36,205 nt of DNA from a virus. Positions 3,363 through 35,843 of this stretch are shown one piece after another. The notes under the pieces were generated by a model. It was given only the letters and a program-made list of their open reading frames with translations, was not told the origin of the DNA and searched no databases. A program made the position numbers and the translations under genes. The stretch covers positions 1 through 36,205 of IMG/VR virus record IMGVR_UViG_3300020725_000004; one strand, given 5' to 3'. Numbering within the stretch: the stretch's first letter is position 1; each line of letters begins with the position of its first letter.

Positions 3363-3510
3363 CCCTTTTACTTGCTCGCTTGGATCGTTTTGATTTACGC
3401 TTTTCTGATAGCGCTATTGCTACCGCTTGTTTTTGCTTTCGACCTTCTCCTATCAGCTTGCGGATGTTTGCTGACACAGTCTTATTTGTTACACCTTTAG
3501 CGAGTGGCAT
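3358..3510 (-). CDS. Small basic protein, DUF6496-like
   Basis: A 50-residue protein beginning MPLAKGVTNKTVSANIRK and containing QAVAIALSEKRK, the QA-AIALS pattern of small basic proteins (DUF6496-like) found in phages and bacteria. The tail is almost all Lys, Arg and Ser. Its ATG lies inside the last codons of the Rz gene (14-base overlap). Its stop overlaps the DUF2061 frame. A nucleic-acid-binding role is plausible from charge only. Confidence 0.75.
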   Translation of the reverse strand: MPLAKGVTNKTVSANIRKLIGEGRKQKQAVAIALSEKRKSKRSKRASKRG

Positions 3511-3922
3511 TGTTTACCTCATCATATTGTTTGTAACAGGCTTCTAGCGCTGTCCGCAGTCCGTCTGCTCTGGCAGCTTCCCTGTCAAGAAAAGCTGCAT
3601 CCTCGGCAGAAAGGGACAGCCCAGTTCCACCTTGTCCATTGTTGGCGCTGTACTGACTACGACTGGGTCTTGAGCGCAACTTGATAAGAGCATCAGCAAG
3701 CTGATTGTTGATAGCGTTAATTTGAGCATCTTTTTCTCTCCTAATCTGATCGGCTGCCTGTTGATTTTCTTTCTCTTTGGCTGCTATTGCTTGTTCCTGA
3801 GCTATCTTTTGAGCTGCTTCTTTCTTTTGATAGCGCCATCCGTTGACAGTCCAGCCAGCAGAAAATGTCAAGACTACTGCAACGATGTAAGCAATCAGTT
3901 TGAATTGGATGGAAGCGAACAC
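3497..3922 (-). CDS. Rz: Rz-type inner-membrane spanin
   Basis: A 141-residue i-spanin. An N-terminal membrane anchor (about residues 8-28) is followed by a long charged, Gln/Lys/Glu-rich coiled-coil region facing the periplasm. It would pair with the Rz1 lipoprotein to fuse inner and outer membranes in the last step of lysis. The start is GTG at 3922, overlapping the endolysin end by 28 bases. Rz1 is encoded entirely inside it in another frame, the classical nested arrangement. Confidence 0.93.
   Translation of the reverse strand: MFASIQFKLIAYIVAVVLTFSAGWTVNGWRYQKKEAAQKIAQEQAIAAKEKENQQAADQIRREKDAQINAINNQLADALIKLRSRPSRSQYSANNGQGGTGLSLSAEDAAFLDREAARADGLRTALEACYKQYDEVNNATR
3544..3729 (-). CDS. 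Rz1: Rz1-type outer-membrane lipoprotein spanin
   Basis: A 61-residue protein nested in a different frame within Rz. It has a basic start, hydrophobic h-region and lipobox LLSSC with the lipidated cysteine at position 18, giving a mature peptide of about 44 residues. Outer-membrane anchoring through the lipid and contact with Rz across the periplasm are the known family roles. It has two further cysteines (38 and 58) and fewer prolines than lambda Rz1. Presence of this gene argues for a Gram-negative host. Confidence 0.9.
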   Translation of the reverse strand: MLKLTLSTISLLMLLSSCAQDPVVVSTAPTMDKVELGCPFLPRMQLFLTGKLPEQTDCGQR

Positions 3923-4359
3923 TTTTCATATTCCTCTTGTCTGCGCTTTAAAAGCCCTGGCTCTACTTTACCGCCAGCAGTATCCCATTTCAACAACTCT
4001 TTGCAAGCACCTGCATAGTCCATGCTATTAAGTTTTTTATTAAGGGTTGAGTAGCAGAAAGCAGACACCCCAACATTGTAGGTAAAATCCAAATAAGCAT
4101 CGTATTCTCCTTGAGAAATAGGCACATGAATACACTTCACCATGCCTTTAGCGTGTTCATCAAGACTTTCTTCTAGCTTGACTAACGCTCTTACGGGATC
4201 TGTTTTATCACCCTTTTTGACACCGTCAGCTTGACCATAACCAACGGTATAAACACCGCCTACATCTTGGTAAGCAGTGCCACTATATCCTTCATGTACA
4301 GCAACTCCAACAAGCACCGCTGCGCTTGCAATTATGGCAGCAGCGGGCTTTCTATCCAT
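3895..4359 (-). CDS. Endolysin, GH24 lysozyme with signal-arrest-release anchor
   Basis: A 154-residue muramidase. The catalytic triad has the canonical E-8-D-5-T spacing: E23, D32 and T38 in HEGYSGTAYQDVGGVYTVGYG region. Residues 6-21 form a weakly hydrophobic Ala/Val-rich helix ahead of the catalytic Glu, as in phage 21-type SAR endolysins, which are exported by the host Sec system and activated when the membrane is depolarised. Later motifs (AYLDFTYNVGVSAFCYSTL) are family typical. Start overlaps the preceding stop (TAATG). It follows a holin-like gene in the same operon. Confidence 0.94.
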   Translation of the reverse strand: MDRKPAAAIIASAAVLVGVAVHEGYSGTAYQDVGGVYTVGYGQADGVKKGDKTDPVRALVKLEESLDEHAKGMVKCIHVPISQGEYDAYLDFTYNVGVSAFCYSTLNKKLNSMDYAGACKELLKWDTAGGKVEPGLLKRRQEEYEKCSLPSNSN

Positions 4360-22307: not shown

Positions 22308-22844
22308 TTATTGTGGAGTTGCAGAAGGCATACCACCAGGCAAACCACCGCCAGGAGGAGGTGGCATACCACCGCCAGCACCAGAAGGAGCAGGTGGAGG
22401 AGGCATACCGCCAGGTGACATACCAGGGATTTTCGGAGCTTGTGCCATTGCTTTTCCTTCAGCCGTTGCTCCACCAGCTTGAGGTAATGTTTGCAACATC
22501 TGCATAATTTCAGTAGGTTGCAATTCATTTGTTTTGGATTTCTTAGGACCAATCACACGGTTAAGTGTATTGATCGCAGCTAAAATTTGCCTGCCTTCAT
22601 CAGAATCAGATCCTACAGCAGGTAAGGCTTGTTCTAACAAGTCTTGAGCCATCGAGAGATTAATCATCGAGGCTTCACGGTTACCCATCTTAGGTTCTGG
22701 GGTACTCATAGGAGATCCCATTGGAGCAGCGCTATTTTCGGACATTCCTACAGGCGCTTCAGGAGCTGGGGGAGTTCCACCAGGTGTAGCACCATCCCGT
22801 TGGCTTTTAATCATTTGCATCAGTTGGTCTGAAGGTACGCCCAT
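22308..22844 (-). CDS. Met/Pro/Gly-rich head-region protein
   Basis: A 178-residue protein. The N-terminal half has MGVPSDQLMQMIKSQRDG and helical ASMINLSMAQDLLEQALPAV; the last 45 residues are nearly all Pro, Gly, Ala and Met. It is the first gene after the promoter at 22871-22898 and probably the first of the capsid operon. It may be an assembly or scaffold-related factor. Confidence 0.7.
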   Translation of the reverse strand: MGVPSDQLMQMIKSQRDGATPGGTPPAPEAPVGMSENSAAPMGSPMSTPEPKMGNREASMINLSMAQDLLEQALPAVGSDSDEGRQILAAINTLNRVIGPKKSKTNELQPTEIMQMLQTLPQAGGATAEGKAMAQAPKIPGMSPGGMPPPPAPSGAGGGMPPPPGGGLPGGMPSATPQ

Positions 22845-22870
22845 AACTTTTTCCTATTAAGTTTCTCTGT

Positions 22871-22898
22871 ATCGTAATCTTAAACTATCAATTGTCAA
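22871..22898 (-). promoter_or_regulatory. Sigma-70-like promoter of the capsid operon
   Basis: On the minus strand a perfect TTGACA (22893-22898) is followed after 16 bases by TACGAT (22871-22876), four of six matches to TATAAT. It lies 27 bases before the first capsid-operon gene and after a structured gap, as expected for a late promoter. Confidence 0.6.
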
Positions 22899-22919
22899 GT
22901 GGGGGGATATATTTTGCTT

Positions 22920-22937
22920 CCCTCCCCCCAGGGAGGG
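22920..22937. other. GC-rich hairpin in the head-gene gap
   Basis: CCCTCCC and GGGAGGG form a perfect 7-bp stem with a four-base loop. On the plus strand it is followed by TTTT. It could block antisense read-through or act on the leader; its orientation relative to late genes makes a normal terminator less likely. Confidence 0.45.
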
Positions 22938-22952
22938 TTTTCGGTCTGTCCG

Positions 22953-22989
22953 AAGTAATCAGAGGGTTTTAGCCCTCATAAGATTACTT
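22953..22989 (-). terminator. Composite hairpin after the 13-residue peptide gene
   Basis: An outer 8-bp stem (AAGTAATC / GATTACTT) encloses an inner 5-bp stem (GAGGG/CCCTC). The peptide stop codon is inside the outer stem. There is no U-tract, so it may be a processing or stabilising element rather than an intrinsic terminator. Confidence 0.45.
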
Positions 22990-23025
22990 GCGAGCTTTAC
23001 GACCTTTGCGTGCTTTGCGTGCCAT
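22984..23025 (-). CDS. 13-residue polybasic peptide 2
   Basis: Encodes MARKARKGRKARK followed by TAA, with GGAG nine bases before the ATG. Eight of thirteen residues are Lys or Arg. It is in the same frame as, and a near-relative of, the 13-residue peptide at 23107-23148. Likely roles, by charge only, are DNA or RNA binding (for example packaged DNA condensation) or a regulatory leader. Confidence 0.55.
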   Translation of the reverse strand: MARKARKGRKARK

Positions 23026-23106
23026 GTGAGTATTCTCCAGTTAGCAGCGGTCACCTACTTTACAGGGGAGGCAGCCACACCCTTTCTTCCCGTGAAGGAA
23101 AACTTA

Positions 23107-23148
23107 TTAACGCTTAGACTTGCGTGATTTTTTGTGAGCTTTACGCAC
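23107..23148 (-). CDS. 13-residue polybasic peptide 1
   Basis: GTG start with a perfect AGGAG six bases upstream; encodes (M)RKAHKKSRKSKR and ends in tandem TAATAA. Nine residues are Lys, Arg or His apart from three serines/alanines. Located right after the portal-module gene 23169-23330. Paralogous in length and style to peptide 2. Confidence 0.55.
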   Translation of the reverse strand: MRKAHKKSRKSKR

Positions 23149-23168
23149 AATAATCTCCTAGTTATTAA

Positions 23169-23330
23169 CTATCCCCTAATTGCCCTGCCCATATTCCGAA
23201 CTTTCGGACTACGGTTAAAACTCGGACTGCTTTGAGTACGATACTCCAAACCTGGACCTTTATCACCTCTTTTTAAAGATTCAGTAGAAACTTTTGGCTG
23301 GTCAGCCTTAGGTGCGATTGATTGTGCCAT
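23169..23330 (-). CDS. 53-residue basic protein after the portal gene
   Basis: Begins MAQSIAPKADQPKVSTESLK and ends NMGRAIRG; Lys/Arg/Ser/Gly-rich and probably disordered. The ATG overlaps the portal stop (TAATG), which strongly supports translation. Function unknown, perhaps a small head-assembly protein. Confidence 0.75.
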   Translation of the reverse strand: MAQSIAPKADQPKVSTESLKRGDKGPGLEYRTQSSPSFNRSPKVRNMGRAIRG

Positions 23331-24967
23331 TAGCCTTCCTTTTTATGTTGCTTCTCTTTGGGAGCGCCAGCAGGAGGCTTCTCTTGACCTTCACCTTGAG
23401 CAGCAGCTTGCTTTTCACGCTTTTTTAATTTCTCTATGAGTAATTGTTTACCTGGAGCTTCCACCATGTCAAGTAAAGATTCTTTGTCAATTGCGCCAGC
23501 TTTAAATAAATTGAACGCCAATTGCTTTGTATCTTCAGTAAAGATTGGGCTGTTAGAGTGAGCATCAACTTTAACAACATAATCGTTAGTAAACTGCTCT
23601 GCAATAAACGGCACGCCTTCAGTATCTTTGTAATGTGTTGGGTCATAGGCTTGCATGAGCTTGAGATACAGTGTTGCTACCTTTTCCAAGCTATCTTCCA
23701 CAATCAAAGCCCGTTTTTTAGCTCTTGAAGAACCTAAACGAGCTAATTGGCTTGCATGACCAGCCGATCTTACACCAGACTCGCCTTTACCTTGCAATAC
23801 ATTGCCAATACCTGAAACTTCTTCAAACATTGCGCTAATTTCGTGGATAACCTCAAAAAGATCAGGTGGCATCTGCGGTGCAAGGCGTTCAGCCTTAGCG
23901 TTGGGCATATCTGAGCTTAAAAGACCACCAGGACGGTTTAATGCAAAGTTTTTCTCATCCAAGATGCCAGACCAGCCTGTCAACGCTATTGGAGGGCTAA
24001 CTTGCTTGGACAATAGATCCAAAATCTCTACCCAGCGCACATTGAGCAAAGTTTGAAGCTGCATGAGCTTTTGAACTTCCGATGCGCCCCAAAAATAGGT
24101 TGGCAATGGGTTTGGGCAGATCTGAACAAATGGACATTCGCCTTTAAGGAACAAGGATGCACCTGGTCGGTCATAAATAATAATTCCAGGAGCTGCGCTA
24201 GTTACCACTTGATAATCAGAAGTGTCATCATTCCACACCCACAACTCAGTCATCTCTACTGTATCTTCAGCTACTTGAGCTTTGTAGCGATTTACTCCAT
24301 ACAGATCAAGGTTGATGTTGCCATAGATAGTCGGATTGGTTTGACTCATCACAATACGATTTACTGCTTCAGGAATCTCTGATTCATTAACTCTTGTGCC
24401 AGTCGTGAGGCGCTTTACGATGTCATCACGCTTTGGATGGGAATACAGACGGGCATATAGCTCCGACTTTGTCATGTAGTAAGTTTGTACAATGGCTTCT
24501 TGCCTGTCTGTATAAGGGGTGTCCTCACGCAATATGCCGATAGAATCAGGCTCGATCAGGTAAGGATTAATGCCGTTGTTATAAACCAGCTTTACAAAGG
24601 TGGTGTTATAAACCAATGACCAAGTCAACGCAGTCGAAAATACTTGGTCTGCATTGGAGTTAAGCCACTCGTCATTGAGTGCTTGAGTCAATCGTGGTGT
24701 TTTGCGCTGCTCCATATCGTGGACTGAAGCGCCCAATTGTAAAGAGAAGCGGGTTGTTTCCGAGCTATAGAGGAAGCTAGTAAGCTGATCTAAGTGCGGA
24801 TTGATCTTGTTGAAATAGGCTGGTGGTTCTTCAGGTCCAGCGCCAAATAAATAATATGCCCGCTGAGTGGTGTAATCACCTTTGCGGGCATCTCTTGATA
24901 CCAGGCACTTAGCAATGATGTCTAAATAAAAATCTTCTCTTGCTTCGGGTGCGCTAGGTATTCTCAT
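23330..24967 (-). CDS. Portal protein
   Basis: A 545-residue protein in the order terminase-portal-scaffold-capsid. Characteristic stretches include YYLFGAGPEEPPAYFNKINP, a wing-like region, WVEILDLLSKQVSPPIAL, and GVRSAGHASQLARLGSSRAK in the C-terminal half, followed by a Lys/Gln-rich tail. Twelve copies form the ring through which DNA is packaged and released. Overlaps the zinc-ribbon gene by four bases. Confidence 0.88.
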   Translation of the reverse strand: MRIPSAPEAREDFYLDIIAKCLVSRDARKGDYTTQRAYYLFGAGPEEPPAYFNKINPHLDQLTSFLYSSETTRFSLQLGASVHDMEQRKTPRLTQALNDEWLNSNADQVFSTALTWSLVYNTTFVKLVYNNGINPYLIEPDSIGILREDTPYTDRQEAIVQTYYMTKSELYARLYSHPKRDDIVKRLTTGTRVNESEIPEAVNRIVMSQTNPTIYGNINLDLYGVNRYKAQVAEDTVEMTELWVWNDDTSDYQVVTSAAPGIIIYDRPGASLFLKGECPFVQICPNPLPTYFWGASEVQKLMQLQTLLNVRWVEILDLLSKQVSPPIALTGWSGILDEKNFALNRPGGLLSSDMPNAKAERLAPQMPPDLFEVIHEISAMFEEVSGIGNVLQGKGESGVRSAGHASQLARLGSSRAKKRALIVEDSLEKVATLYLKLMQAYDPTHYKDTEGVPFIAEQFTNDYVVKVDAHSNSPIFTEDTKQLAFNLFKAGAIDKESLLDMVEAPGKQLLIEKLKKREKQAAAQGEGQEKPPAGAPKEKQHKKEG

Positions 24968-34763: not shown

Positions 34764-35584
34764 GCAATATCGTTAGTTTTAACGAGATGGAGCAGATGGC
34801 ACAAGCAATAGCCAAGTCTGGTCTATTTGGTATGAAGGACACCAACAGCGTTCTAGCGTTGATGGCGGTAGCACAGGCGGAAGGTTTACATCCTGCAACT
34901 GCAGCTCGTGACTTTCACATCATCCAGGGCAGACCAGCATTAAAAGCTGATGCGATGCTTGCCCGTTTCCAAAATGCAGGTGGCAAAGTCGAATGGAAGG
35001 AATACACAGATGAGCAAGTTACAGGAGTTTTTTCACATCCCAACGGGGGTAACCTTGCGGTTACATGGACCATTGGACAAGCTACCAAAATTGGTCTTGT
35101 TAAACCAGGAAGCGGATGGCAAAAGTTTCCCAGAGCGATGCTCAGAAGCCGTTGTATTTCAGAGGGGATTAGATCAGTTTTCCCTGGATCTGTTACGGGG
35201 TTCTACTCGCCAGATGAAGTCGAAAACTTCGAAACCCAGACCGTCAAGCCTACCGTATTAAAAGACATGGGATCAGTCATTCCTAGCGTAGTGGATCTTT
35301 CCGCTATTCCTGATGACATCCCAGATATGGCATTGCCGATGTATGTTCCTGGTAATGATGTTCCGTATGCGCATTATGTTTGTAAAGATGATTGGATTGA
35401 TGGTTTCGCAGAGATGCACGCCAAGATCCATGAATCTACCAAGATGACAGCAGAGGAAAAATTCACCAAGATAAAGGCGTTTAGAGATGTCAATGAAGCC
35501 TATACAAAAACATTTGACGGCAATACTACAGCAAAGTTTTTATCAAAACTCCAAGCAATTAGAAAGGAAATCAACAATGGCTAA
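34760..35584 (+). CDS. recT: RecT-family ssDNA annealing protein
   Basis: A 274-residue protein. GLHPATAARDFHIIQGRPAL and KADAMLARFQNAGG (about 40-75) are the core RecT motif, followed by KFPRAMLRSRCISEGIRSVF (about 120-140). It anneals complementary ssDNA made by the YqaJ exonuclease, supporting replication-linked recombination. The C-terminal third is charged and variable. The next gene starts in its last codons. Confidence 0.92.
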   Translation: MSNIVSFNEMEQMAQAIAKSGLFGMKDTNSVLALMAVAQAEGLHPATAARDFHIIQGRPALKADAMLARFQNAGGKVEWKEYTDEQVTGVFSHPNGGNLAVTWTIGQATKIGLVKPGSGWQKFPRAMLRSRCISEGIRSVFPGSVTGFYSPDEVENFETQTVKPTVLKDMGSVIPSVVDLSAIPDDIPDMALPMYVPGNDVPYAHYVCKDDWIDGFAEMHAKIHESTKMTAEEKFTKIKAFRDVNEAYTKTFDGNTTAKFLSKLQAIRKEINNG

Positions 35585-35843
35585 TGGTCATATCGCCCAG
35601 ATGGGCAAAGGTGTTTTATTTCAAAATGAGAAAAAACACGAAAAATCACCTGATTGGAAAGGCACTCTATTGCTTTCTGAGGACTACAAAGCAGGACAAA
35701 CACTCAAGATTGCTGGCTGGACTAAACAAACTCCAAAAGGCAGCTTAATTAGCTTGTCTGAGGATAACTGGAAGCCTGATACAGGTGGCGCTTATCCAAA
35801 AGAAGTGAATAAGCGTGTTGATGACGGGGAAGTGCCATTTTGA
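35577..35843 (+). CDS. SSB-like ssDNA-binding protein with acidic PF tail
   Basis: An 88-residue protein from ATG 35577, overlapping recT by eight bases and chosen over upstream methionines for its AGAAAGGAAA site. The central part (GTLLLSEDYKAGQTLKIAGW) is beta-like. It ends VDDGEVPF, similar to the DDDIPF tip of SSB. It lies between recT and rusA. It is the complete form of the left-end gene; the two versions share the tail character despite sequence changes. Confidence 0.75.
   Translation: MANGHIAQMGKGVLFQNEKKHEKSPDWKGTLLLSEDYKAGQTLKIAGWTKQTPKGSLISLSEDNWKPDTGGAYPKEVNKRVDDGEVPF
35599..35843 (+). repeat. Right copy of the end duplication (SSB-like gene part)
   Basis: Corresponds to 1-242. 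Positions 35599-35725 are identical to 1-127. Confidence 0.95.

Follow-up and report, generated by a model that had tools for sequence, protein, structure and literature searches.

Conserved tiny polybasic genes in the head module of a tailed-phage lineage and two covarying RNA pseudoknots that bracket one of them

The DNA analysed here (the window) is the 36,205-nucleotide IMG/VR virus record IMGVR_UViG_3300020725_000004. The only long non-coding gap of its late gene block, 22845-23168, lies on the head side of the portal gene and holds two 13-codon genes, termed pepA and pepB. The features of the gap and its surroundings, all on the minus strand, are as follows.

23169..23330, minus: 53-aa ORF, basic, the upstream neighbour, outside the peptide family
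23155..23159, minus: Shine-Dalgarno sequence AGGAG of pepB
23107..23148, minus: pepB, 13-codon gene with GTG start, MRKAHKKSRKSKR followed by a stop
23086..23102, minus: P1, small stem-loop just 3′ of the pepB stop, of the TTTTCC-TTCAC-GGGAA type, seen by eye in the alignment
23049..23083, minus: PK1, H-type RNA pseudoknot 5′ of the pepA ribosome site, identified by covariation and linkage to pepA
23035..23038, minus: Shine-Dalgarno sequence GGAG of pepA
22984..23025, minus: pepA, 13-codon gene with ATG start, MARKARKGRKARK followed by a stop
22900..22937, minus: PK2, H-type RNA pseudoknot 3′ of pepA, identified by register fitting and compensatory helices
22871..22898, minus: promoter-like site TTGACA-16-TACGAT, 5′ of the 178-aa gene
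22308..22844, minus: 178-aa proline-rich ORF, the downstream neighbour in most members
21527-20517, minus: major capsid gene, starting about 1.3 kb beyond the gap

The products of pepA and pepB each contain eight K/R and no D/E among 13 residues, and the Shine-Dalgarno spacing to the start is ordinary for both. Both strands of the whole 36-kb window were scanned for ORFs of 9-24 codons with a net charge of at least +6 and a Shine-Dalgarno sequence, and pepA and pepB were the sole matches. Markov shuffles of the window gave 0.05 tiny basic ORFs with a Shine-Dalgarno sequence per window, and none with a charge of at least +8 and a length of at most 14. The two 13-residue polybasic peptides with good ribosome sites described in an earlier note on this DNA are therefore present, as ORFs preceded by AGGAG and GGAG. 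Its placement of them between the portal and capsid operons needs a small correction: the gap is bounded by the portal gene plus the 53-aa ORF on one side and by the 178-aa ORF on the other, and the capsid gene lies farther off.

Relatives were retrieved through the portal (80 IMG/VR loci, 77-100% identity). At least one tiny basic ORF was present in all 65 portal-matched relatives having at least 600 nt downstream of the portal gene, and two or three in 63 of these 65. A blind scan of 2.9 million viral contigs was also carried out with a degenerate DNA pattern that encodes MARKxxKGRKxxK, without regard to neighbouring genes. The pattern matched at least 119 contigs, and all loci checked lay between a portal relative and a relative of the 178-aa ORF, or at the equivalent site of a truncated or divergent contig. 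A match in a Bacteroidetes MAG (L196) was rejected as a chance GCACGCAAAGG repeat lacking both a Shine-Dalgarno sequence and phage genes. The corresponding scan with a pepB-type pattern, in which the 7-nt spacing was held fixed, was too rigid and gave no matches. In 113 distinct gaps, a set partly ascertained via pepA itself, the 5′-3′ order was BA (91), CBA (11), A (10) or CA (1), C being a third peptide type. In the portal-derived set, ascertained independently of pepA, the distinct gaps were BA (33), CBA (11) and A (1). A Shine-Dalgarno sequence was scored in 112 of 113 pepA copies and 100 of 102 pepB copies. The earlier note named disappearance of the ribosome sites or reading frames among close relatives as evidence against its claim; this check was made and did not refute the claim.

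The most distant member, L188, has a portal 51% identical to that of the window, and a search from L188 reached phages with portals down to 38% identity to its own. Every distant relative with a readable flank carried one to three tiny basic ORFs, including MARKHKRAKRK and MARHMRRSRRK in L220 and L223, and MYKSVKRGRRKGCR and MRRKGRKARR in L211. Across the lineage found, the genes are 10-15 codons long and number one to three per member. For the genomes compared, these results establish tiny polybasic genes as an obligatory component of the head module in this portal/capsid lineage, with the C-B-A order fixed.

Selection on the peptides was assessed over the last 11 codons with an omega-like ratio, in which non-synonymous and synonymous single-base codon differences are compared with the neutral expectation. 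The ratio was 0.032 for pepA and 0.039 for pepB in frame, 4.6 and 120 (pepA) and 2.8 and 7.2 (pepB) in the wrong frames, and 0.75-1.06 in the PK1 spacer adjoining pepA; because the pairwise counts are not independent, these values describe the size of an effect and should not be read as P values. The K/R positions were kept basic, and the Ala, Ser, Gly, Thr and Met residues in between drifted. Conserved RNA structure does occur in this region and the ORFs are below the length that gene callers accept, as would be expected if they were chance, untranslated ORFs within structured RNA. However, synonymous variation is frame-specific (0.03 in frame versus more than 2.8 out of frame), the Shine-Dalgarno sequence, start, stop and C-terminal register are conserved, and such ORFs are absent in shuffles; an artefact of this kind is extremely improbable and in practice refuted by the frame test. 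The frame dependence leaves little doubt that the peptides are products of translated genes under strict protein-level selection. Short as these genes are, sequence comparison on its own is decisive evidence of such selection. They fall under gene-caller length cut-offs and below the range of at least one large survey of small ORFs, which covered 15-70 codons (PMC11188072).

The share of CGY among arginine codons was 99.6% for pepA (CGT/CGC in 265 of 266), 81% for pepB, 78% for the major capsid protein (MCP), 56% for the portal and 52% for TerL. The codon bias of pepA suggests strong expression. A further ORF in the spacer within PK1 (MAAFPLK-like, in some members) was rejected as a gene, its frame and stop not being kept and its substitutions being non-coding in pattern. 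In database records, "hypothetical proteins" have been deposited antisense over the tiny genes (UOF82412.1, UOF81572.1 and UOF81573.1; L081 5779-6039 and L082 4740-5038; MW202825.1, MW202753.1), and these three protein entries are probably spurious calls.

All main peptide types have the core (K/R)(G/S/T)RKxx(K/R) in common. Type C, the third, reads MARKxKKGRKSCK; its cysteine is conserved, and it bridges A and B. In L214, both copies carry an identical insertion (MRKARKAGRKTRR, MARKARKAGRKGRK). Together with the fixed C-B-A order, these features speak for the paralogy proposed in the earlier note, but 13 residues limit the support that any alignment can give, and homology of A, B and C over this length is suggestive, not provable. 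Another tiny basic cysteine-bearing ORF, MACGSRNKRRYR or MACGSRKKRKYR, was observed about 120 nt 5′ of pepA in L173, L199 and L217, with an SD-like AAGG, and is possibly the counterpart of type C. In L202-L205, a 28-residue histone-H1-like peptide, MATKHAKVAAKKAAMKKAVKKTLKPKVR, is encoded in the head gene block, 1072 or 1537 nt past the portal match.

The earlier note did not include the two RNA elements, PK1 and PK2, that bracket pepA and extend its observation. PK1 was found by aligning the B-A spacer; 125 of 131 loci were anchored and yielded 69 distinct cores. It consists of a 4-pair S1, a 3-nt loop and an 8-pair S2 (GGCUGNNU with ANNUGGCC), and ends about 10 nt 5′ of the pepA Shine-Dalgarno sequence. 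In the window, S1 is AGGG/CCCT and S2 is GGCUGCCU/AGGUGACC with one C.A mismatch. S1 was complete and S2 had at least seven of eight pairs in 55 of the 69 cores, and six further cores had 3 and 8 pairs. Mean pairing over all 69 cores was 3.70 of 4 and 7.46 of 8, compared with 2.99 and 6.71 when the partners were permuted. In 33 chosen distinct cores, 97.7% of cells paired, a percentage made somewhat favourable by drawing these cores from well-fitting ones, and two-sided changes were seen at 8 of 12 pairs. For the same 33 cores the covariation score was 0.433 versus 0.128 in shuffles (reached in 0 of 500), and slid registers were at most 63% paired. The tandem U.G/G.U step of S2 is nearly invariant, a pattern that would be expected if PK1 works as RNA and not as DNA. 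The middle base of loop 1 and pair 3 of S2 also seem to covary, UGU occurring with C.A and mostly UAU, UCU or UUU with C-G; these are possibly two alternative ways of closing S2.

When all viral contigs were scanned with a PK1 pattern, 37 matches at new loci combined a complete S1 with a portal or capsid related to those of this lineage. A pepA-type ORF lay directly downstream in 36 of them, and the remaining contig ends inside the ORF. Other matches, in which S1 pairing or phage context was missing, look like chance. The P1 stem-loop, on the 5′ side of PK1, varies in sequence between relatives.

PK2 was counted by register fitting because MAFFT alignment misplaces its short S1 stem. In the window, S1 is CCCU/AGGG and S2 is UGGGGGG/CCCCCCA, with an A-rich loop. 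Relatives likewise have a short S1, an S2 that is usually G-rich/C-rich and an A-rich loop (UUUAAAUAUA or AACUAAAUAAA), followed by AC-TTGACA. As the fit optimises register, shuffles and not raw pairing served as the control. PK2 fitted 87 of 91 distinct regions with a mean score of 10.2, versus 4.1 in shuffles, and a score of 10 was reached by 76% of real regions and by no shuffle. Compensatory helices were found for both S2 (GGCAGTT/AACTGCC, GGACGGC/GCCGTCC, GGACGTT/AACGTCC) and S1 (CTTC/GAAG, TGTC/GACA, TCCA/TGGA). A PK2 pattern matched 35 contigs; in 34 of them a tiny basic ORF lies immediately 5′ of PK2, and the other contig is truncated. In the regions compared, base pairing and covariation establish that most members have an H-type RNA pseudoknot on each side of pepA: PK1 precedes its ribosome site and PK2 follows its stop. 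An intrinsic minus-strand terminator 3′ of pepA was considered and rejected: PK2 has no U-run, and the terminator-like match (22920-22937) belongs solely to the plus strand.

Searches of Rfam returned nothing better than E=1.4 over window positions 22600-23500, all hits being far below gathering scores, and no PK1 or PK2 match in six relatives. A search of the open-access literature on polybasic phage microproteins, small ORFs of freshwater phages and RNA motifs of this kind found no description of these elements among the titles listed. PK1 and PK2 are apparently undescribed RNA elements, found at the pepA locus only.

Strict linkage of both pseudoknots to pepA, together with the near-invariant U.G/G.U step, is what would be expected of autogenous control, in which the arginine-rich peptides bind PK1, and perhaps PK2, as a self-regulating switch at the boundary of the portal and capsid operons. 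T4 gene 32 provides a precedent (PMC535899). Unusual PK1 stems were observed together with unusual 12-residue pepA peptides in L007, L064, L069 and L075 (MRKARKGRKARK, MRTKRKGRKARK, MRKSRKGRKARK, MRGRKKGRKARK), and this pairing, also in line with autogenous control, could reflect either coevolution or linkage. However, the PK1/pepA correlation as a whole may simply reflect linkage over a short DNA segment, and no separate pseudoknot is obvious for pepB or pepC. Furthermore, PK1 is not recognisable in the most divergent members (L210, L214, L216, L220, L222), in which the peptides remain, indicating that the function of the peptide does not depend on the pseudoknots. Autogenous control is the main rival explanation, and we regard it as unlikely.

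The gene order of the main clade is portal, 53-aa ORF, (C), B, P1, PK1, A, PK2, TTGACA site, 178-aa ORF, 61-aa ORF, 174-aa ORF and capsid. The promoter-like site matches 10 of 12 consensus positions, and such matches are no commoner than in shuffles; TTGACA/T lies within 95 nt of the 178-aa gene in 85 of 91 distinct relatives. In L198 and L197, B is missing, PK1 is kept and the TTGACA element is 112 nt upstream of pepA. The gene 3′ of pepA in L188, L197 and L198 is gp154-like (133-134 aa in L198 and L197) and not the 178-aa ORF. The peptide, PK1 and the downstream gene are thus separable, and the peptide is the part that persists.

This arrangement bears on the suggestion of the earlier note that the peptides could act as leaders. 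In a cis-acting role of this sort only the act of translation would matter, for example by opening the RNA or delaying the ribosome before the capsid operon. The operon boundary with its structured RNA is a suitable location, and basic nascent chains can slow ribosomes. On the other hand, pepA is letter-identical in L198 and L197 though the next gene is gp154-like and structural, and in the main clade PK2 and the TTGACA site intervene between pepA and the next gene, both of which disfavour a leader role for one downstream gene. There are up to three copies, the codons are frequent and not rare (CGY 99.6%), and the residues are under selection along their full length. A cis-acting leader or coupling role is accordingly very unlikely.

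The portal matches Pfam SU10_portal (PF23899), TerL matches Terminase_6C and the capsid protein matches phrog_9953; the neighbouring 53-, 61-, 174-, 178- and 193-aa products matched no Pfam or PHROG family. The lineage consists mostly of freshwater, uncultured tailed phages. No cultured relative was found through the portal or the distant portal, and through the MCP only at about 22-27% identity; Hydrogenobaculum phage 1 was rejected as a relative, its match being at TerL only. Phage contigs of this lineage were binned in a beta-proteobacterial (L195, CAITMU010000022.1) and a Saccharibacteria (L197, CAIUOC010000024.1) MAG, and host assignment from these bins is uncertain. In the window, overlapping Rz/Rz1-like spanin genes (3497-3929, minus strand; judged from translation) lie beside a lysozyme-like endolysin gene (3895-4359), which suggests a Gram-negative host. 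The proteins encoded at the two ends of the window, positions 3-242 and 35487-35843 (MGKGVLFQNEKKHEKSPDWKG...), differ only slightly, which would fit a phage genome that is circular or terminally redundant, or a duplicated gene pair.

We favour, with moderate confidence, a reading in which the peptides are abundant trans-acting nucleic-acid-binding products for head assembly or DNA packaging, with expression controlled by the pseudoknots. The preference is based on a charge unaccompanied by other chemistry, the head location, shared inheritance with portal and capsid, the codon bias and the number of copies. The tiny-gene cassette would make peptides of 12-14 residues and a charge of about +8 late in infection. 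Near-exclusive CGY codons for arginine, strong Shine-Dalgarno sequences and UTR structures of a type that can stabilise or control mRNA point to abundant synthesis, although codon bias speaks to abundance only indirectly. Thirteen-residue peptides are easily degraded in the cell, which counts against this reading. The peptides would act in trans, binding nucleic acid by charge, and the likeliest substrate would be phage DNA during packaging or the surrounding head-assembly complex, making the peptide a peptide-sized counterpart of polyamines or of microvirus J/VP8. PK1 may control translation of pepA or act to stabilise it, and PK2 may be a 3′-end or operon-boundary element separating the portal-side transcript from the capsid operon.

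Neutralisation of packaged DNA in the manner of J, as proposed in the earlier note, would fit the charge, the position among head genes, the codon bias and the strict conservation of the peptides. In tailed phages this task is generally ascribed to Mg2+ and polyamines, so a dedicated DNA-neutralising peptide would be unusual. A more specific version, an obligatory array of protamine-like 12-14-residue products of which many copies are used or packaged with the DNA, with a mini-cistron bracketed by two new pseudoknot families, can be offered only tentatively. If true, it would represent a dsDNA tailed phage lineage with its own genome-condensing micropeptides. Packaged peptides would mean that tailed phages have a protamine-like answer of their own to DNA charge; peptides that bind the flanking pseudoknots would form a minimal RNA-peptide control circuit. 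The charge would also permit late, very basic peptides to act on the host by disturbing its nucleic acid, ribosomes, polyphosphate or membranes, and many small phage proteins are directed at the host (review PMC11323111). However, the genes sit in the head module, are co-inherited with portal and capsid and not with early genes, and are conserved over a broad lineage, and the hydrophobic residues needed for membrane action are missing. A host-directed role is therefore quite unlikely.

Among known systems, Kuravirus SU10 represents the nearest Pfam portal family (PF23899), and its portal, small ORF, scaffold and capsid genes are similarly ordered. In contrast, cultured SU10 has no gap between portal and scaffold, so that neither tiny basic ORFs nor pseudoknots could fit there. 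The J protein of phiX174 and VP8 of SpV4 resemble the peptides in being very short, very basic phage-coded proteins with a proposed role at the DNA-capsid interface. Both are larger (38 aa in SpV4 VP8), and the phenylalanine at the C-terminus is embedded in the coat protein shell (PMC11281519). The peptides here have 12-14 aa, occur in two or three tandem copies and lack a hydrophobic anchor: the C-terminal residue is K or R in all listed variants and aromatic in none. Moreover, J and VP8 belong to ssDNA microviruses, whereas this genome has TerL, an SU10/P22-like portal and a tailed-phage major head protein. In the favoured reading, the pepA and pepB products would work like J/VP8 or adenovirus mu, J-like in idea and not J by descent; homology cannot be shown.

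Two virion peptides that are short and rich in arginine, the adenovirus core peptide mu and baculovirus p6.9, condense dsDNA. Mu is released from a precursor by cleavage, p6.9 is longer and made up of arginine and serine, and both are from eukaryotic viruses, unrelated to the phages studied here and with no sequence relation to pepA and pepB. Lambda N combines an arginine-rich RNA-binding motif with further segments for NusA and RNA polymerase; a short basic segment and structured RNA nearby are common to both systems, but the entire product here is 13 residues. T4 gp32 represses its own mRNA via a leader pseudoknot (PMC535899). Gene 32 of T4 and RB69 and pepA both have an H-type pseudoknot 5′ of the ribosome site, and the T4 product binds nucleic acid, as the pepA product is proposed to do. 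The stems and loops differ, no homologue of gp32 takes part, and the UUAAA/UAAA repeats of the T4 gene 32 type are missing from the PK1-pepA spacer, which is about 10 nt plus the Shine-Dalgarno sequence. In contrast to gene 32, the cistron in these phages is 13 codons long and has a second pseudoknot on its 3′ side.
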